Shown here in pieces: positions 2,566-19,994 of a DNA stretch of 20,499 nt. The position numbers were made by a program, and so were the translations under genes. The stretch lies in IMG/VR virus record IMGVR_UViG_3300044910_000335, positions 1 to 20,499 of that record. One strand, given 5' to 3'. Each line of letters starts with the position of its first letter. Position 1 is the stretch's first letter. Below the pieces are notes generated by a model. It was not told the DNA's origin. It saw nothing but the letters and a program-made list of their open reading frames with translations, and made no database searches. The DNA is from a virus.

Positions 2566-2850
2566 ATGAAATTAGTCCTTTGGATTCATCGCTCCAACGA
2601 TGAATCACAAGAGTGCGTTGCCGAATTTGTGGACTTCGTCAAATACGAAGAAATCCATAACGTTTCAATGTCCAAAGTAGAACAGGACATCAAAATTCGT
2701 GACTTGGCTTGGTTGGCGTGGCATTCAGAAAAACGTCGCAACAAGACCACGCTTGATTTCGACAAATGGCTTGAGACTGTTGCCAATATCAGTCTCGACG
2801 CTGGGGACGGTCAAATCGTCCCTTTGGAGAAGACTCAGCCCACTGGATGA
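2566..2850 (+). CDS. Tail assembly chaperone, short (G-type) form
   Basis: This 94-residue frame directly follows the major tail protein and has a strong Shine-Dalgarno (GGAGGT, 6-7 bases before the ATG). It is mostly helical. IRDLAWLAWHSEKRR (residues 44-58) and LDFDKWLETV (63-72) match the usual chaperone pattern of a DLAWLA helix followed by a WL-containing helix. Chaperones of the lambda gpG/gpGT type coat the tape measure protein while the tail tube assembles. The frame stops at 2848-2850 inside an ATGA overlap with a second frame. Seven codons before its stop lies a canonical -1 slippery heptamer, so this is probably the unshifted product of a pair. Confidence 0.8.
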   Translation: MKLVLWIHRSNDESQECVAEFVDFVKYEEIHNVSMSKVEQDIKIRDLAWLAWHSEKRRNKTTLDFDKWLETVANISLDAGDGQIVPLEKTQPTG

Positions 2851-2987
2851 TCGCCTATTTGGCGTGCGAGACGGGGATTGCCCCATCTCAACTGTTGGCT
2901 GAGTCACCACGAATGATTTGGACGATGCAAAAATATTTACACTGGCGTTTTATCAAACAGAATCCAAAGACGCCCTACACTCGCTGA
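2566..2987 (+). CDS. Tail assembly chaperone, frameshifted (GT-type) fusion
   Basis: The predicted -1 frameshift product is 140 residues: 87 from the first frame through Leu87, then 53 from the second frame starting at 2826. The joined sequence runs IVPL-GEDSAHWMIAYLACE and then TGIAPSQLLAESPRMIW. The second frame has its own ATG at 2847, but in the shifted frame it is open well upstream, back to 2775. Its content (a helix, then TGIAPSQLL, then a helix ending WTMQKYLHWR) is typical of the T half of siphovirus chaperones. Reading it as a free 46-residue protein from 2847 is the alternative. The fusion is inferred from sequence; the shift efficiency is unknown. Confidence 0.7.
2820..2826 (+). 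promoter_or_regulatory. -1 programmed ribosomal frameshift site CCCTTTG
   Basis: Read in the chaperone frame as GTC CCT TTG, the heptamer is C CCT TTG and fits the X XXY YYZ rule exactly. After a one-base backward slip the ribosome reads GGA GAA GAC and enters the T-type frame, which is open to 2987. Its placement 24 bases before the first stop is typical of tail chaperone frameshifts. Confidence 0.7.
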
Positions 2988-2988
2988 T

Positions 2989-3573
2989 ATGCCGAAGGTC
3001 TCTAGCGGTACTCGGATAGCTTCCGGACGCGCAGGAGATGTCGCCTTCGCAGCACCAGGTCTATTGGAATTCTTGCGTGACGCCAGTCAAGCGCAAGAAG
3101 GTTTCAACAAGCAGATGCGCAAGGCCGCCGAAGCCGTCGCACAAAAGGTAGTTGACGACGCAAAAAGAAACGCCGCAGCCCAACCGCCTCATGGAAAACC
3201 ACGTCCTGGATCATCGGGACGTTCTCAAGCACAGGTCGTTGTGAACGGATTGCGTGCCAGACGCGACCGCATCCCAACCATCAAACTCGATCACAACAAG
3301 CTCTACCCTTCTAAATCGCGGTCAAATACCAAACGCACACGAGGCAAAGCCTTTGGTCCTGGTCTGACTAGAAAAGTCACCATGGGCGACGTTTTTTTCG
3401 GTGCCGAATTTGGTGGTCAAGCGCGACCTCGCACTCAGCAATTCCTGCGACATCGCGGTAGGCAAGGATATTTCTTCTGGCAAGCAGTTAGAGACAACAA
3501 GTCCTACATCGTCAAAGAATATTCTGACGCCATCGAACGAGTATTGAAAGAACTTGCCAAGGGAGCCAAATAG
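2989..3573 (+). CDS. HK97 gp10-like tail completion protein
   Basis: 194 residues. The N-terminal third is helical (KQMRKAAEAVAQKVVDDAKR, about 41-60). The signature comes later: FFGAEFGG, then RTQQFLRHRGRQGYFFWQAV (about 149-168) and a C-terminal helix. The GxEFG...FxxHRGRQGYFFW pattern is typical of HK97 gp10-type minor tail or tail completion proteins. These are usually encoded between the connector and the terminator, so the position after the chaperones is unusual. A very basic middle section (KSRSNTKRTRGK) may contact nucleic acid or acidic partners. The ATG has no Shine-Dalgarno and is preceded by TACACT 7 bases upstream. Codon use is less GC-rich than upstream genes. Confidence 0.7.
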   Translation: MPKVSSGTRIASGRAGDVAFAAPGLLEFLRDASQAQEGFNKQMRKAAEAVAQKVVDDAKRNAAAQPPHGKPRPGSSGRSQAQVVVNGLRARRDRIPTIKLDHNKLYPSKSRSNTKRTRGKAFGPGLTRKVTMGDVFFGAEFGGQARPRTQQFLRHRGRQGYFFWQAVRDNKSYIVKEYSDAIERVLKELAKGAK

Positions 3574-3582
3574 GCGTAGTCT
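3554..3582 (+). promoter_or_regulatory. Sigma-70-type promoter inside the tail cluster
   Basis: TTGCCA (3554-3559), a spacer of exactly 17 bases, then TAGTCT (3577-3582). It overlaps the end of the gp10-like gene and points at the primase-like gene at 3609. Transcription would start near 3589. The following leader carries AAGGAG (3596-3601), 7 bases before the ATG. Confidence 0.55.
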
Positions 3583-3608
3583 GATTCCACAACATAAGGA
3601 GCCCGCCA

Positions 3609-4325
3609 ATGCCCCGCCAACTAATCAGTGCCGTCAAATTTCGTGACGTCAAATCCAATCAACCGCAGAAGTTCGCCATCTCCTGGAAGGGATTGAGCAG
3701 CCTGCTGCAAATCAGCGAGGCAAGAAGCGATAAGACGCAACGCGAACTCTGGTCCCCAGTCACCTATTTCAACGGCACGACCCGAGGCAACCGCAATGTC
3801 CAATACGTCACCTGTCTCGTCGTCGACATGGACGGCGAAGCATTCGACCATGCACGACTAGACGGCTTGGAATATCTCGCCTACACCACCTGGTCACACA
3901 CGCCAGAAGACCAGCACTGGCACCTCGTCCTGCCACTTGCCTACCCGGTTCCTGCTGATCGTTGGCACGAAGTCTGGACTCATTTGCATGAACGCATCAA
4001 CGTCGTCGGTGACCCGCAGACCAAAGATCCTGCACGCATCTTCTACCGACCGCAACACAAACCGCTGACGACTCCCGACATCAAGATTGGGTTTGGCGAA
4101 TTCATTGACCCCGACCTCGAAGCAATTTTCGTGCCTCGACCACGAATCGCACCAAACCCGAAATCTGCAGAAATTCGACAATCAACGAATTCTCATTGGC
4201 GACCCGAATCATGGTGGAATGAACCGCAGGATTTAAGTCGTTTCGCCGGTTTGACACAGTCACAAATAGCTGCCAAATTGCTTGATGAGTTTAGAGAACT
4301 GAGAAAGAGCTGGGTTTTTGACTGA
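3609..4325 (+). CDS. Primase-polymerase-like (AEP-type) protein in the tail cluster
   Basis: 238 residues. The core carries VTCLVVDMDGEAFD, with an Asp-x-Asp pair at 73-75 like the metal site of archaeo-eukaryotic primases. It is followed by YTTWSHTPEDQHWHLVLPLA (92-111), VPADRWHEVWTHL, and DPQTKDPARIFYRP (135-148). The DxDG...HTP...LVLPL...DPxRxFYxP order is found in primase or replication-initiation domains of phages and plasmids. No helicase or zinc domain is present, so it is a single-domain protein. It has a strong AAGGAG site, its own promoter, and sits between tail completion and tape measure genes. That makes it a likely moron or displaced replication gene. The fold assignment comes from motifs seen by eye. 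A catalytically inactive or different nucleotide-binding role is possible. Confidence 0.55.
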   Translation: MPRQLISAVKFRDVKSNQPQKFAISWKGLSSLLQISEARSDKTQRELWSPVTYFNGTTRGNRNVQYVTCLVVDMDGEAFDHARLDGLEYLAYTTWSHTPEDQHWHLVLPLAYPVPADRWHEVWTHLHERINVVGDPQTKDPARIFYRPQHKPLTTPDIKIGFGEFIDPDLEAIFVPRPRIAPNPKSAEIRQSTNSHWRPESWWNEPQDLSRFAGLTQSQIAAKLLDEFRELRKSWVFD

Positions 4326-4340: not shown

Positions 4341-7103
4341 ATGGCCGTTGAGCGTCAATTTATCGTCAAGTTGCTTGCCGACCCCAAGCAACTTATCGCC
4401 GATTTTCAATTAGTTCGAGGCGAAGCCGAGAAAACCTTTGGCATCTCCAATGCCAAACTCCAACAACTGCTACCTGGTTTCAAGGTATTGACGACTGCTG
4501 CGGCAGGCGTATTCGGAGGCTTGGTCGCTGGAGCAGGATTGGCGGTCAAAGCAGCAGCCGAAAACGAGGCGGCTCAACAACGACTTGCTCAAATTCTCCG
4601 AACGACTGGCAAAGCAACCTCCGATCAAATCAAGGGTCTCAATGAGCAGGCTGATGCACTTGAACGTGTTGGCGTTGTTTCGGGTGGCAATATCACTGCG
4701 TTGCAGGCTCAGCTTGCGACCTTTGATTTGCAGGCAGACACGATTGCCAAATTGACGCCGGCGATTGCCGACTATGTCGTCGCCGAAAAGGGTGCGACGG
4801 CCAGTGCCGAAGATTTCAAGTCAATGACCAACGGTCTTGCACAAGCATTGAATGGTCAATTCGGGGCGTTGACCCGGGTGGGCTTCGTGCTCGATGACAC
4901 AACAAAAGAACTGATTTCCAATGGAACTGAAGCCGAACGTGCCGCAGCTCTAGTCGAAGTCTTGAACTCCACTTATGGCGGTTTTAATGCTTCATTAAGG
5001 GAGACGACAGAAGGTCGAATGATTGCTCTTCGCAATTCGTTGGGCAAACTTCAAGAAGATATCGGCAAAATCCTCCTTCCGTTATTTGAGAATCTTGTGG
5101 GCGTGCTGGCGAAATTCGCATCGTTCGCTGCTCAAAACAGCACAATAATCGCGATATTGGCTGGAGGCGTCGGAGTTCTCTCCGTCGCCATTCTCGGTCT
5201 TGCCGGATATCTAAAAATCGCAGCTCTACAAAAGCGAGCCCTCAATGACGAATTCTTGAAAGGTCTGGTCACATTCAAGACTGCAGAAGGGCAGATGACC
5301 GCAACCGGAAAAGCAATCGTCGGCGTAGGAAAAGCCCTTGCGGTGGTTGCGGCCGCTGAAGGCACTTTTGCTGTCGTGAATGCAGTCGGAAATTCGGCTG
5401 CCAAAACTGCCGATCAAGTCAAAGCATTGACCGTTGCATTGAATGAGTTTGGTAAGGCTGGTGAAAAAGAACCCGAAAAAGTTTTGGAAGAATTTACAAG
5501 GCTCGCTCAAACAATCGGTCAAGAACTTCGATTGAAAGACATCTTCATTCAGTTCGGTCGAGAATTTCAATTGGTGGCCAACGGAATTTCTGTTGATATT
5601 GAATTAGCCGATGAGGCTTTCCGCAAATTTTTGGACAGCGATCCGCAGAAAGCCGCAGCCATTGTTCAAGCTCTTCAAGATCAACTTGCTGTCACTGATC
5701 CGACGAGTCGTGCTTATCAAGACTTGAAAGATGCAATTGATCGTTATCGTGCCGCCGTCAATTTGACTCTTGCAGCACAAGGCAAGTTAAATGACGAATT
5801 GAATAAGACATCTTGGTTTGAGAAGAATACAAAAGGTCTGGCAGACCTTAAGGTCGCACACAATAACGAGGCGCGAGCTCGCCTGGCTTCCGCGGATTCC
5901 ATTAAGAATTGGAATACCGAAGCAGAGAGATTGTTTAACAAGGCCGGTAGCGGTAAATCTGCGATTGAGAAACTTGCCGACGCCCAGAAAAAATTGCAGG
6001 ATGCCGTTCGTGGTGTTTTCAGCGCACAAATTGGGGAACGCAACGCAATCGAACGAGTCACCGACGCACAGAAACAATTGAAGAACGCCGACGAGGCAGT
6101 CACCAAGGCTAAGGAAAAACTCGCTCAGGCAATCCGCGGCTACGGTCGGGACAGCAAGGAAGGTGCGGCTGCGGTCAGAAAATTGACTGATGCGCAAAGA
6201 AATCTTACTCAAGCCAATCGGGGTGTTGCCGATGCGCAACAACGTGTTCTTGATGCCGAACGCAAGATTGCGGAAATCCGAGCCAAGGCAGCGGACCCCA
6301 CCGAACAGAACGAAGCTCAACTTGCGTTGGAGCAATCTCGACTCGGATTGGAGGAGGCGACGATTCGAGTTTCCGAAGCGGAAGAAGAATTGGCAAAGAC
6401 CTTGGCCGATCCAGAGGCTTCTGCCAAAGACAAACGGAAGGCGGAACTTTCGCTTGTTTCAGCGAAGTTGAGTTTGCGTGATGCGACGATGGATCTTGGT
6501 CAGGCCGAGAAGGAATTGGCTGCGATTCGTGCGGGTACGGAAAATGCTGTCGAATTGGCGGAAGCTGAACGGGAATTGACCGACGCAAAGATTTCCGTCG
6601 AGGACGCTATTTACAATCAGAAAAAAGCTCAAGAGGAATTGAATGCCGAACAAGAGAATTACCGCAAGGTCGTCGAGGGTATTCGAGAATCCGACAAGGA
6701 ATATGTCGAATTGTCGAAAGACATTGTGGATGCCGAAGAGAATCAGGCTTCTGCGGCTCGTGGATTGCGCGATGCCAGAGAACAGGCCGCTTCAGCAACC
6801 GATTCGCTTCGCAAAGCAGAAGAGGCGTTACGAGAAAGTCGAAAAGAGGCTCGTGGTGCTGGAGTTAATGTTAAAAATGTTGTTGCCGGTGTTAAGTCTC
6901 CGATGGATTTCGGCAAAATTCCGGAACCGACTGCAAACGGAAACGGTAATCAGAATGGCGGCAACAACGGTGCCACTGTAATCATGAATATCACGAACGG
7001 CATTGGTGGCAATGCCTACCAGGTCGGCAAGGAACTCATTGAGATACTTGACCAGTACACGTCGGTGGCTGGTCCGCTTGACACGTTGATGCGCGTGGCC
7101 TGA
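4341..7103 (+). CDS. Tape measure protein
   Basis: At 920 residues this is the longest protein in the window. It has hydrophobic segments at about 48-70 (GVFGGLVAGAGLAVKAA), 266-292 and 323-350. The region SMTNGLAQALNGQFGALTRV (161-180) with ATAERAAALVEV-like text after it is typical of siphovirus tape measures. From about 530 to 840 the chain is one long series of coiled-coil heptads rich in Ala, Glu, Lys and the recurring words DAQ and DAE. It ends in an Asn/Gly-rich hinge and a short C-terminal domain. The protein sets tail length; at the usual 0.15 nm per residue the tail would be near 140 nm. Base composition is clearly lower in G+C than in the genes after 7105. The start lacks a ribosome binding site. 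Confidence 0.9.
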   Translation: MAVERQFIVKLLADPKQLIADFQLVRGEAEKTFGISNAKLQQLLPGFKVLTTAAAGVFGGLVAGAGLAVKAAAENEAAQQRLAQILRTTGKATSDQIKGLNEQADALERVGVVSGGNITALQAQLATFDLQADTIAKLTPAIADYVVAEKGATASAEDFKSMTNGLAQALNGQFGALTRVGFVLDDTTKELISNGTEAERAAALVEVLNSTYGGFNASLRETTEGRMIALRNSLGKLQEDIGKILLPLFENLVGVLAKFASFAAQNSTIIAILAGGVGVLSVAILGLAGYLKIAALQKRALNDEFLKGLVTFKTAEGQMTATGKAIVGVGKALAVVAAAEGTFAVVNAVGNSAAKTADQVKALTVALNEFGKAGEKEPEKVLEEFTRLAQTIGQELRLKDIFIQFGREFQLVANGISVDIELADEAFRKFLDSDPQKAAAIVQALQDQLAVTDPTSRAYQDLKDAIDRYRAAVNLTLAAQGKLNDELNKTSWFEKNTKGLADLKVAHNNEARARLASADSIKNWNTEAERLFNKAGSGKSAIEKLADAQKKLQDAVRGVFSAQIGERNAIERVTDAQKQLKNADEAVTKAKEKLAQAIRGYGRDSKEGAAAVRKLTDAQRNLTQANRGVADAQQRVLDAERKIAEIRAKAADPTEQNEAQLALEQSRLGLEEATIRVSEAEEELAKTLADPEASAKDKRKAELSLVSAKLSLRDATMDLGQAEKELAAIRAGTENAVELAEAERELTDAKISVEDAIYNQKKAQEELNAEQENYRKVVEGIRESDKEYVELSKDIVDAEENQASAARGLRDAREQAASATDSLRKAEEALRESRKEARGAGVNVKNVVAGVKSPMDFGKIPEPTANGNGNQNGGNNGATVIMNITNGIGGNAYQVGKELIEILDQYTSVAGPLDTLMRVA

Positions 7104-13998: not shown

Positions 13999-14335
13999 AC
14001 GCAAAGGCAACCGCGCCGAACTTCTCGTCGCCAAATGGCTACGCAAGTACGGCTGGATAAACGCCGAACGAAGCCGCGCCGGTTGGACCGACGACCGCGG
14101 CGACATCGACGGCCTGCCAGGTGTCTGCATCGAAGTGAAGAACGAAAAAAAGATTGACATCCCCGGCTACCTGAAAGAGCTCGAAGTGGAGATGAGCAAC
14201 GCCCGAGCATGGACAGGTGCAGTCATCATCAAACGCCGTGGCACCGAAGAAGTAGACGACTGGTATGCAGTGATGCCCGCAAAGGTGTGGGCGGAGCTGC
14301 TCGCTATGCTTGACCGTCCCACACCGCCCCGCTAA
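13982..14335 (+). CDS. PD-(D/E)XK nuclease, Holliday junction resolvase-like
   Basis: 117 residues. The order KGNRAELLVAKWLR (Glu13), GWTDDRGDIDGLPG (Asp41), CIEVKNEKK (Glu51-x-Lys53) is the PD-(D/E)XK nuclease core as arranged in archaeal-type Holliday junction resolvases and related small phage nucleases. A following helix (YLKELEVEMSNA) and the strand GAVIIKRRG complete the fold. It probably cleaves branched DNA during replication, recombination or packaging. It sits just upstream of the recombination and replication genes, and the end of its coding sequence carries the -35 and most of the -10 of the next promoter. It overlaps WhiB by 17 bases and has no visible ribosome site, so its start may be leaderless or coupled. 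Confidence 0.75.
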   Translation: MAHPNKRKGNRAELLVAKWLRKYGWINAERSRAGWTDDRGDIDGLPGVCIEVKNEKKIDIPGYLKELEVEMSNARAWTGAVIIKRRGTEEVDDWYAVMPAKVWAELLAMLDRPTPPR

Positions 14336-14338
14336 GGT
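14310..14338 (+). promoter_or_regulatory. Sigma-70-type promoter of the nuclease/replication operon
   Basis: TTGACC (14310-14315), exactly 17 bases, then TAAGGT (14333-14338). The -10 includes the stop codon of the upstream gene. Transcription would start near 14345 and give a 49-base leader. The leader ends with CCACAAC, AAGGA and GCCCGCCA, words shared with the leader of the gene at 3609. It is the best promoter in the window. Confidence 0.65.
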
Positions 14339-14393: not shown

Positions 14394-15521
14394 ATGACAA
14401 CCGCCGATGGTTTCACAACCGCCGAAGCACCCAAAGACAGATGGGGCAGATACCTCATCGAAACGACCAGCGGAAAACAGACGTCGTTCACCCGCGTCAC
14501 CACGATTGCCAAATCGCTCGACGACGAAGGCGCACTCACCGCATGGAAAGGACGGATGACCGCAACAGGTCTCGTGCAACGCAACGACCTGCTCGTCGCC
14601 GCCTCAACCTGCCTCGACGACAAATCATCCCTCGACCGAATCGTCCAACAAGCAATCGAAGCCGCAGGTGCATCCAGCAAAGCGAACATCGGCACCGCGC
14701 TGCATCAACTCACCCAGGCGATCGACCTCGGCCAGAAGCCCGCAATCCTCCCCGGCTTGCAGGCTGACGTCGACGCCTACACCGCAGGCATAACACGACA
14801 CGGCATCATCATCGACCCACGCCTCGTCGAAGTGCTCCTCGTCAACGAGAAGCACGAGTACGCAGGTACCGCCGACCGCATTGCCCGCTTCGGCTCACGC
14901 AAACGCAAACAAGTCTTCGACCTGAAGACAGGCAACATCGATTACGCCATCAACGCCATCGCAGTCCAGATGGCGATGTACGCCAACGCCGAATACATCT
15001 ACGACTGGCGCACCAAGGAACGCATCCCGATGCCAGAGCTCGACAAGACTCGCGGCGTCATCATCCACCTGCCCGCAGGCAAAGCCCAATGCGACCTCTA
15101 CGAACTTGACCTAGTCGCCGGGTGGGAAGCCGCGTTGATGGCGATGGATGTTCGCGCTTGGCGTAAGCGCAAAAACCTGCACATCAAAGTGCATGCGGAG
15201 GCGGCGGCCACCGACAAGGTTCCGCCCACAACCGGAGTCGCCGCCTCTGCCGACATCAACCGATTAGACGTCCTCGCACGCATCCGCAATCTCCCCGACG
15301 CGGCACAGGAACTGTTGAAGCGTCACTGGCCTGCGCCTGGCGTCAAGTTGCCCGACATGGACGAGTTCCAGTTGGATGTGCTGATGGTGCGCATCGACCA
15401 GTTGGAGACCGAGTTCTCCGCACCGTTCATGCCGAACCCCGAGAAGCCAGTCGCCCCAATCAACGACGGCGCCCCGGTGAAGAAGAAGTCGGCACCGAAG
15501 AAGAAAGCGGTCAAGAAATGA
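14394..15521 (+). CDS. RecB/Cas4-like PD-(D/E)XK exonuclease
   Basis: 375 residues. The RecB-type nuclease motifs are in order: NIGTALHQLTQA (99-110, His104), KHEYAGTADRIARF (153-166, Asp161), VFDLKTGN (174-181, Asp177-x-Lys179) and AVQMAMYA (190-197, the QxxxY-like motif). No clear Cys cluster for an iron-sulphur site is visible. These phage enzymes are usually annotated as Cas4-family or RecB-like exonucleases and work in recombination or degrade host DNA. The last 20 residues are Lys-rich (PVKKKSAPKKKAVKK), probably for DNA contact. The ribosome site AAGGA is unusually far (about 16 bases) from the ATG. It overlaps the next gene in ATGA. Confidence 0.8.
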   Translation: MTTADGFTTAEAPKDRWGRYLIETTSGKQTSFTRVTTIAKSLDDEGALTAWKGRMTATGLVQRNDLLVAASTCLDDKSSLDRIVQQAIEAAGASSKANIGTALHQLTQAIDLGQKPAILPGLQADVDAYTAGITRHGIIIDPRLVEVLLVNEKHEYAGTADRIARFGSRKRKQVFDLKTGNIDYAINAIAVQMAMYANAEYIYDWRTKERIPMPELDKTRGVIIHLPAGKAQCDLYELDLVAGWEAALMAMDVRAWRKRKNLHIKVHAEAAATDKVPPTTGVAASADINRLDVLARIRNLPDAAQELLKRHWPAPGVKLPDMDEFQLDVLMVRIDQLETEFSAPFMPNPEKPVAPINDGAPVKKKSAPKKKAVKK

Positions 15522-18155: not shown

Positions 18156-19994
18156 ATGGAAGTGCTGACCGCCGCACTCGCCTACGCATCAAAAGGATTA
18201 CGCGTCATACCAATCGCCCCAGGCGAAAAGTATCCGTCAGGCATCGAATCGTGGCAAACGAAAGCCACCACCGACCCCGACACCATCACCACATGGTTCA
18301 CCAAGACATACAAAGGCTGGGGCGTCGGCATCGCCACAGGCAAGATCACCAACAGCTACCTGTTCGTCCTCGACATCGACGACCGCGAACAACATCGAGG
18401 CTCAGACACACTCGCCGACCTTGAAGCCGAACACGGCGAACTACCACCCACCGTCACCGTCCATACCCCATCCGGTGGCAGGCATCTCTACTTCCGCACC
18501 AGCATCAACGTGCGCAACGACGCAGGCAAACGCCTCGGGCCGGGCTTAGACATCCGAGGCGAGGGCGGACAAGTCCTCGCACCACCAACGCTGCACCCGA
18601 ACGGCAAGCCCTACATCGAAGACGTCGAACACGGCTTCAACAACCCACCCGCATTCGCACCCGACTGGCTCATCCAACGCCTCACCGTAGAACCAAAAAT
18701 CGACCGCCACCAGCCACACGACCTCGACGGACTCCGCGACGACCCCAACCTCCCCAGCACCCGCTACAACTCCACCAGCGACTGGCACAGCCTCCTCACC
18801 GCCGACGGATGGAAACACGCCTACCAACACAACGGCACCGACTACTACATCCGCCCAGGCAAAGACCGAGGCATCTCAGCATCCGTCAACCACAACGGCA
18901 ACGATGCCCTCATCGTCTTCAGCACCAACGCACCCATCCCACCCGGCGGCTACACCCGCTTCGGCTACTACGCCCAAACCCGACACGGAGGCGACTGGAA
19001 AAAAGCCAGCGCCGCCTACCTCGGCACCAACCCCACACCCACCACCACAACGACTCATGAGTTGCTCGAGCAGCTCATCAACTGGCAAGACTTCTGGAAC
19101 CAAGACCACAAATCAGAAGACTGGATCGCCTACCCACTCATCGCACGCGGAAGACAAACAGCACTCTTCGCCGTCAGCAAAGAAGGCAAATCATACATCG
19201 CACTCGCCTGCACCGCAGCCCTCGCCACAGGCAAACCCATCTTCGGACGCCCAGCCCAACCACCCGTCCACGTCCTCTACCTCGACTACGAAATGACCGC
19301 ATCAGACCTGATGGAACGATTGGAGACCCTCGGCTACACCAACGAAGACGACCTCACCCACCTGCACTACGCCCTCATCCCGAGCCTGCCACCACTCAAC
19401 ACCTACGAAGGTGCAGCAGAAGTCATGAAACTCGTAGAACTTACAGGTGCCCAAGTCGTCGTCATCGACACCACCGGACGAGCCGTAGAAGGCGAAGAGA
19501 ACTCCGCAGACACCTACCGCGAGTTCGCCAGGACAACCGGCCTCAGCCTCAAAGCAGCAGGCGTCGCCCTCCTGCGTACCGATCACGCAGGCAAAGACAA
19601 AGGCAAAACCCAAGGCCAACGAGGCTCATCAGCCAAAAACGACGACGTCGACATCGTCTACCACCTCCAACGCGACGGCCACACAATGAAACTCACCCGC
19701 ATCTTCTCCCGCATCGGCTGGGCACCAACCGAAGTCGAACTCGTCGAGGAGCAGCTCGAGGACGACCACAAACCCATCAGGCTCAAAGAAGCCATGGAAA
19801 CCTTCACCGAAGAGACCTACGACCTCGCACGCCGCCTCATGATCGCACTCGGCCTCAAACCCGGCGACAAGCAACAGAACAGCCAAGCCTTCCGACGCCA
19901 AGCCCGCCAAGCAGGCATCAAAGCTCGCAACGACCAATGGGGTCCAGCCCTCCGAGCCATCGCCCAAAACCGCCTAAGAGACCCACTCGCCTAA
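18156..19994 (+). CDS. Bifunctional primase-polymerase / RecA-like helicase
   Basis: 612 residues with AAGGAGA before the ATG. The N-terminal prim-pol domain (about 1-180) has LFVLDIDDRE (69-78, Asp73-x-Asp75), TVHTPSGGRHLYFR (101-114, the SGGxH motif) and GLDIRGEGGQVLAPP (130-144). A linker domain runs to about 300. The C-terminal RecA-like ATPase has Walker A as AVSKEGKS (339-346), with Ala in place of the first Gly, VHVLYLDYEM (371-380), Walker B VVVIDTTGR (434-442) and a DHAGKDKGKT loop. This is the replicative primase-helicase type of small actinophages, which makes primers and unwinds DNA. No DNA polymerase is seen in the window, so synthesis may depend on the host or on genes outside it. 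Confidence 0.85.
   Translation: MEVLTAALAYASKGLRVIPIAPGEKYPSGIESWQTKATTDPDTITTWFTKTYKGWGVGIATGKITNSYLFVLDIDDREQHRGSDTLADLEAEHGELPPTVTVHTPSGGRHLYFRTSINVRNDAGKRLGPGLDIRGEGGQVLAPPTLHPNGKPYIEDVEHGFNNPPAFAPDWLIQRLTVEPKIDRHQPHDLDGLRDDPNLPSTRYNSTSDWHSLLTADGWKHAYQHNGTDYYIRPGKDRGISASVNHNGNDALIVFSTNAPIPPGGYTRFGYYAQTRHGGDWKKASAAYLGTNPTPTTTTTHELLEQLINWQDFWNQDHKSEDWIAYPLIARGRQTALFAVSKEGKSYIALACTAALATGKPIFGRPAQPPVHVLYLDYEMTASDLMERLETLGYTNEDDLTHLHYALIPSLPPLNTYEGAAEVMKLVELTGAQVVVIDTTGRAVEGEENSADTYREFARTTGLSLKAAGVALLRTDHAGKDKGKTQGQRGSSAKNDDVDIVYHLQRDGHTMKLTRIFSRIGWAPTEVELVEEQLEDDHKPIRLKEAMETFTEETYDLARRLMIALGLKPGDKQQNSQAFRRQARQAGIKARNDQWGPALRAIAQNRLRDPLA

Follow-up and report, generated by a model that had tools for sequence, protein, structure and literature searches.

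A predicted single-domain primase carried as a moron-like cassette in the tail operon of uncultured phages

Gene content of the locus

The DNA analysed here, called the window below, is a virus record from IMG/VR, 20,499 bases long. The gene under study occupies positions 3609–4325 on the plus strand and encodes a protein of 238 residues, which the list of open reading frames, a PHROG match, an AlphaFold2 model and Foldseek indicate to be a single-domain protein of the archaeo-eukaryotic primase (AEP) fold. In agreement with the initial annotation, the gene lies between a gp10-like or tail-completion gene (2989–3573, plus strand) and the tape-measure gene (4341–7103, plus strand). The left neighbour is present as had been stated, but its gp10 label is weak, the match to PF04883 scoring 20 bits, below the cut-off of 21.4, and that to phrog_5 having an E value of 2.5e-4. 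An unannotated ORF of 46 residues (2847–2987, plus strand), whose ATG overlaps the stop codon of a 94-residue ORF (ATGA), is kept in the phages that carry the AEP gene as well as in sister phages, and is situated where the second tail-assembly chaperone would be. Just within the tape-measure gene (4368–4394) there is a perfect 10-bp inverted repeat (AAGTTGCTTG/CAAGCAACTT, with a 7-nt loop).

The early region encodes a separate Prim-Pol with a RecA/AAA helicase (18156–19994, plus strand). This gene had been pointed out before and proved to be real (PF09250, 1.3e-42; AAA_25, 3.3e-21). It was found in 8 of the 20 records searched, the remaining records possibly ending before it. No DNA polymerase A was found in ten records of 30–35 kb. 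Neither a turn in the GC skew nor an iteron-like repeat suggested an origin near the AEP gene. In a near-complete relative (G007), a protein of 226 residues is encoded beside the Prim-Pol helicase (L375:14504–15184); it is the likely source of a Mom-like DNA-modification match (PF25680, 3.6e-39) obtained in a pooled scan that leaves the member unnamed.

These phages carry a WhiB gene (PF02467), and WhiB is typical of actinophages (PMC10202952). The −10 hexamer predicted upstream of the AEP gene is of the TANNNT type, which is the −10 preferred by SigA in Mycobacterium smegmatis (PMC6448022). Because of these two features, an actinobacterial host is likely. The AEP family, which is large, probably belongs to uncultured viruses of aquatic actinobacteria. 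The same pattern scan that detects the family in IMG/VR found no relative of the AEP gene in 84,980 bacterial and archaeal genomes, so that there was no support from prophages and no host by that route; in a phage collection it returned remote primases only.

Primase fold and active site

PHROG profiles of phage primases and helicases matched residues 36–169 of the protein (phrog_9765, 1.4e-13; phrog_256, 1.4e-6; phrog_2135, 3.4e-6). Both phrog_9765 and phrog_256 also matched all of the 32 diverse family members tested, which takes the primase-like call made at the outset beyond chance. Comparison by hhalign with the stand-alone DNA primase of phage C48C1 gave a probability of 97.5% (E value 7e-12) over 121 residues. 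The gene had no match in the copies of Pfam, NCBIfam or PADLOC used. Since nothing in Pfam came up to E=1, the protein is not a member of PF09250, a family with which comparison had been proposed, and the PDB searched by sequence gave no hit. Profile searches matched no recognisable PriCT or helix-bundle domain; a fused helicase domain is absent from this single-domain protein of 238 residues, which also lacks the multi-domain build of polyvalent proteins. The possibility that the gene is a duplicate of the genome's own PF09250 Prim-Pol, which belongs to another subfamily of the AEP superfamily, was rejected, as hhalign gave a probability of 0.1% and no profile similarity was detectable. Longer versions of 307–372 residues (L032–L035), which could pass for gp10–primase fusions, turned out to be artefacts, their extra N-terminus being the gp10 region in another frame.

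AlphaFold2 models were obtained for two clades of the family, with a pLDDT of 81.6 for the protein of the window and of 81.3 for the other. The best PDB match found with Foldseek was for both models the AEP domain of S-2L PrimPol (6ZP9; 8.7e-5 and 1.1e-4), followed in the case of the second clade by the primase RepB'. In BFVD, Foldseek gave 52 hits at E≤1e-3, mostly N-terminal domains of phage primases and helicases. The top hit, an uncharacterised protein of an uncultured phage with 44% identity, is a member of the AEP family already deposited without a function. The structure prediction that had been proposed as a check did thus reveal a match to a primase fold. The C-terminal ~55 residues contain, in the model, one long helix (residues 217–236, positions 4257–4316), which follows a disordered linker and corresponds to no recognised PriCT domain. 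Taken with the profile matches, the models identify the product as a predicted single-domain AEP.

The sequence elements singled out in the initial annotation, i.e. an Asp-x-Asp motif (residues 73–75), an HTP...HWHLVLPL segment (residues 97–110) and DPARIFYRP (residues 140–148), were all found in the protein. The protein was compared, in an alignment, with annotated primases that phages encode in their replication regions (C48C1, Javan405, EcP1, phiCDKH02, V6Aob and ctKpZ937). Its conserved residues match the three AEP motifs known from S-2L PrimPol (PMC8065100). Motif I (hhhDhD/E) reads LVVDMD and comprises D73-M-D75 (3825–3833, plus strand). Motif II is formed by H103-W-H105 (3915–3923, plus strand), the equivalent of the R/H-x-R/H-L-[IV]-x-P segment of phage primases, H103-x-H105 aligning with their RxR/HxR segment. 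Motif III is D135-P-x-T-x-D-P-A-R143 (4011–4037, plus strand); its acid is most likely D135, which is also invariant in the other phage primases, and not the Asp of DPARIF. D73, D75, D135, T138 and R143 are invariant between the protein and the six annotated primases. Within the family, D73, H103, H105, D135 and R143 are kept in every covering copy (234 copies), and so is D75, save for one conservative D75E. The median dN/dS of the gene is 0.14 (328 pairs), which, together with the retention of these residues, indicates that the catalytic centre is under selection. By these comparisons, the gene appears to be under purifying selection and its active site to be complete.

Among known proteins, the primase of C48C1 (Kyanoviridae, OQ984149, 314 residues) resembles the AEP protein in that it stands alone and contains the AEP motifs, including GDPQTKD...R. 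It is, however, ~75 residues longer, and its gene adjoins that of a DNA polymerase in the replication region, whereas the AEP gene of the window sits in a tail operon behind a predicted promoter of its own. The VapE-type and N4 gp43-like primases (Javan405, phiCDKH02, EcP1), into whose primase/helicase families the PHROG hits fall, share DxD, R/HxR/H-L-[IV]-xP and D-xx-T-xxxx-R with it, but are multidomain proteins of 750–800 residues with a VapE-like helicase or PriCT-1, while the protein of the window consists of the AEP domain alone and a tail of ~55 residues. S-2L PrimPol, the closest solved fold, differs in the same way, since its AEP domain is followed by PriCT-2 and a helicase domain; it serves its phage as replicase (PMC8065100).

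Promoter, insertion and loss of the cassette

The AEP gene is preceded by a predicted −35 hexamer, TTGCCA (3554–3559, plus strand), which overlaps the 3' end of the gp10-like ORF, and, after a spacer of 17 nt, by a predicted −10 hexamer, TAGTCT (3577–3582, plus strand). An AAGGAG ribosome-binding site (3596–3601, plus strand) is found 7 nt before the ATG, as had been claimed, and AGGAG or GGAGG is present within 25 nt upstream of the gene in 79 of 79 relatives. The hexamers were also where the initial annotation had placed them, but in the single sequence they did no better than chance: a strict sigma-70 scan of the window gave 5 sites, as against 6.3 expected in shuffles, and the promoter of the AEP gene was not listed among them. 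Comparison between genomes, on the contrary, spoke for the promoter. The pattern TTGnnn-N16-18-TAnnnT occurred within 70 nt upstream of the AEP gene in all of the 45 non-redundant loci, as compared to 2.2% of shuffles and 0–8% of the regions upstream of 12 other genes; kinship of the sequences inflates such counts, while the difference from nearby genes in those genomes is independent of it. In a wider set, the pattern was found in 80 of 85 loci versus 4.5% of shuffles. It was kept across relatives whose AEP copies share only about 43–50% identity, and in the group of L045, where the flanks diverge, TTGACT/A-N16-TACCCT was retained. The AEP gene has, on the strength of this conservation, a predicted promoter of its own. 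The only other site of the same type in the window is TTGACC-N17-TAAGGT (14310–14338, plus strand), ~55 nt before the RecB-like exonuclease gene that starts at 14394. No terminator was found on the plus strand in the 15-nt gap between the AEP and tape-measure genes of the window, and because of this the promoter may serve the tape-measure gene as well. The gap measures 6–24 nt in relatives.

Pattern scans of IMG/VR gave at least 177 and at least 414 coding stretches of the AEP family, which amounts to at least 414 contigs carrying it; among cultured phages, no carrier was encountered. The left neighbour was the gp10-like gene in all 125 loci fetched, and the right neighbour was the tape-measure gene in all 117 loci in which this could be tested. 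Such constant synteny, by itself, resembles that of a standard tail component, and sampling was therefore switched to the neck protein. In a sister lineage, the AEP gene was absent from 45 of 45 testable loci, the genes in gp10 position and for the tape measure being adjacent or overlapping, while the same profile detected all of the 125 carriers used as a positive control. The order of the genes is otherwise the same (tail tube, 82-residue ORF, ORF in gp10 position, tape measure). This is also the case in phiPsal1, a phage of this sister lineage with a cultured host, Pontimonas (neck 44%, tail tube 43%), which has no AEP gene. The term 'gp10-like' rests in the sisters on position and size, because profile homology of phiPsal1_017 and EBPR gp12 to the gp10-like protein could not be shown. 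On the tree of the neck proteins, presence and absence of the AEP gene correspond to one change, on a dividing branch that is modestly supported and with far outgroups that are long-branched; this fits a single gain.

The carrier lineage, as sampled by the neck protein, comprised 109 carriers, 33 contigs that were too short to tell and 2 contigs devoid of the AEP gene. These two (L276 and L278), which are identical over the 12.6 kb compared, also lack the promoter. Their tape measure is 87% identical to that of carriers and their tail gene 90% identical to that of the window. Furthermore, the short spacer between their gp10 and tape-measure genes retains AGTAGAATCG-GCGCTC, a sequence that in the window stands between the primase gene and that of the tape measure, and this suggests a natural loss rather than a primary absence. 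Absence in the sisters, a single change on the tree and this natural loss argue together for an insertion between otherwise adjacent genes, and not for a part of the tail. The related-phage survey that had been called for therefore indicates that the gene, though embedded in the tail operon as first described, is not a universal tail component, and the loss supports the view that it is dispensable for virion assembly. Within the clade, pairwise divergence of the AEP gene was only moderately correlated with that of its neighbours (rho 0.29–0.46), which gave no indication that it evolves closely with any one of them. Mosaicism is strong between the window and L004–L008, whose tape measure is ~30% identical to that of the window, as opposed to 86–98% for the neck, the tail tube and a tail gene of 416 residues.

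Like the oriR segment of SPP1 with ORFs 8–10 (PMC6316719), the AEP cassette is an extra unit with predicted transcription signals of its own in a conserved order of virion genes. It differs from late-operon morons such as that of SPP1 in that it has no terminator, is found at a single site, is almost fixed in its lineage and encodes a replication-type enzyme. The features of a moron that we observed are the insertion between adjacent genes and, on a comparative basis, the promoter; a terminator belonging to the cassette was not among them. By sequence, it would combine two known kinds of element, an AEP primase domain and a moron-like cassette, within a tail operon.

Possible roles of the primase

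Our preferred explanation, which we hold to be probable, is that the gene is moron-like, is transcribed independently and encodes a replication primase, which would act in addition to the Prim-Pol helicase of the genome and would not be involved in building the tail. A cassette made of a housekeeping-type promoter, a strong ribosome-binding site and one ORF would have been inserted at the junction of the gp10 and tape-measure genes in the ancestor of the lineage, and then retained; insertion, loss and dispensability for the tail are the elements of sequence comparison that bear on this step. Host RNA polymerase would read the cassette from its conserved promoter, independently of the late operon, the firing of the promoter and its timing being what we infer here. 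The enzyme would make or extend primers in phage DNA replication, beside the Prim-Pol helicase encoded at 18156. The fold family, motif conservation and purifying selection are in keeping with this; the protein would then be active, with phage DNA as its presumed substrate. The NrS-1 and ORF904 enzymes need a PriCT or helix-bundle domain to start primers (PMC8718748); as none was recognisable in the AEP protein, its role may be limited to primer extension, or it may require a partner. The Prim-Pol helicase that the genomes already possess argues against a replication primase, and near-fixed retention at one site of a late operon is unusual for a moron. Of the options listed in the initial annotation, the moron has good support as far as origin and structure are concerned, given the insertion and the predicted promoter. 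An orphan replication initiator or primase is the likeliest function, helped by a CopG-like partner found in a sub-clade, while no specific evidence was found for anti-host competition or for DNA entry.

This sub-clade consists of ten loci, at least seven of them distinct, that carry extra genes in the slot between gp10 and the primase. The promoter is followed by one or two variable ORFs (46–104 residues), by a gene for a CopG-like ribbon-helix-helix (RHH) protein of 46 residues (PF01402, 2.4e-8, above the cut-off), the end of which overlaps the start of the AEP gene in the ten loci, and by the primase gene. In all ten loci there are two copies of TTGTCTTAC, exactly 21 nt apart with a variable stretch of 12 nt between them; they lie within the spacer of the promoter and across the end of its −10 hexamer, as an operator would. 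The layout is, by analogy, that of an autoregulated operon such as copG-repB of pMV158, in which the gene for a small RHH repressor and the rep gene downstream of it share a transcript (PMC5717011). In both cases the small gene precedes and overlaps a replication-type gene, with repeats over the promoter; RepB, however, is an HUH rolling-circle initiator and not an AEP, and in the window no RHH gene is found near the AEP gene. By the same analogy, the sub-clade would point to a cassette that is under separate control and has a bearing on replication. The small ORFs preceding the RHH gene differ between loci (L315, L316, L317, L318, L319, L329, L334, L348, L355 and L369), and the slot may therefore be a site of accretion for non-structural genes.

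The overlapping genes, the paired repeats and the likeness to copG-repB could also mean that CopG and AEP form a toxin–antitoxin-like or plasmid-like copy-control module, in which the RHH protein limits a costly AEP, for dosage control or episomal carriage. We consider this improbable, since the arrangement is confined to the sub-clade and neither a partition gene nor an integrase appeared among the 25 of 80 PHROG families listed for the near-complete set of G007. Somewhat less doubtful, although still quite unlikely, is the view that a CopG-controlled minimal AEP is an autonomous replication unit, giving these actinophages of ~32 kb a second, separately switched replication mode (e.g., plasmid-like persistence or late replication), or is delivered by the virion to prime incoming DNA; CopG control would then have been retained in one sub-clade and reduced to promoter and primase elsewhere. 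A primase that is made late, along with tail proteins, and is incorporated into the tail or head and then ejected together with the DNA could prime the first round of replication or protect the entering DNA. The constant contiguity with the tape-measure gene would agree with this, and there are precedents in the conjugative primases Sog and TraC and in the N4 virion RNA polymerase, which are delivered with DNA, and in the AEP domains of predicted injected polyvalent proteins (PMC5512222). Such a virion-borne enzyme has, nevertheless, a small chance of being correct, as the gene has its own predicted promoter, is paired in the sub-clade operon with a CopG-like regulator and small non-structural genes, encodes no extra packaging domain and was lost with no change of tail type.

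Regulators and inhibitors are frequent among morons, the PriCT domain is missing and a second primase looks redundant beside the Prim-Pol. The AEP fold might accordingly have been repurposed to bind DNA or nucleotides with no synthesis of primers, and to act on host replication, competing phages or satellites. This is unlikely, though the least so of the alternatives, because the catalytic acids, the histidines of motif II and the arginine of motif III, invariant in the 234 copies, would be needless in a non-catalytic binder, and PADLOC gave no defence match. As to a function in tail assembly or tail structure, for which position and constant synteny in carriers could be invoked, we regard it as extremely unlikely in view of the identical tail order without the AEP gene in the 45 sister loci and phiPsal1, of a natural loss that leaves the neighbouring tail genes so similar to those of carriers, and of the conserved primase active site.

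As a rule, phages keep their replication genes separate from those for the virion. In this lineage, which is common in metagenomes, the gene for a replication-type enzyme has long been retained at one point between two tail genes, and its family has no model in the copies of Pfam, NCBIfam or PADLOC used. The cassette is a clean example of a moron turning nearly permanent, for which the loss variant and the CopG-bearing sub-clade provide natural comparisons. If the enzyme is active, the question would be why a small phage that already has one Prim-Pol helicase requires another enzyme for priming.
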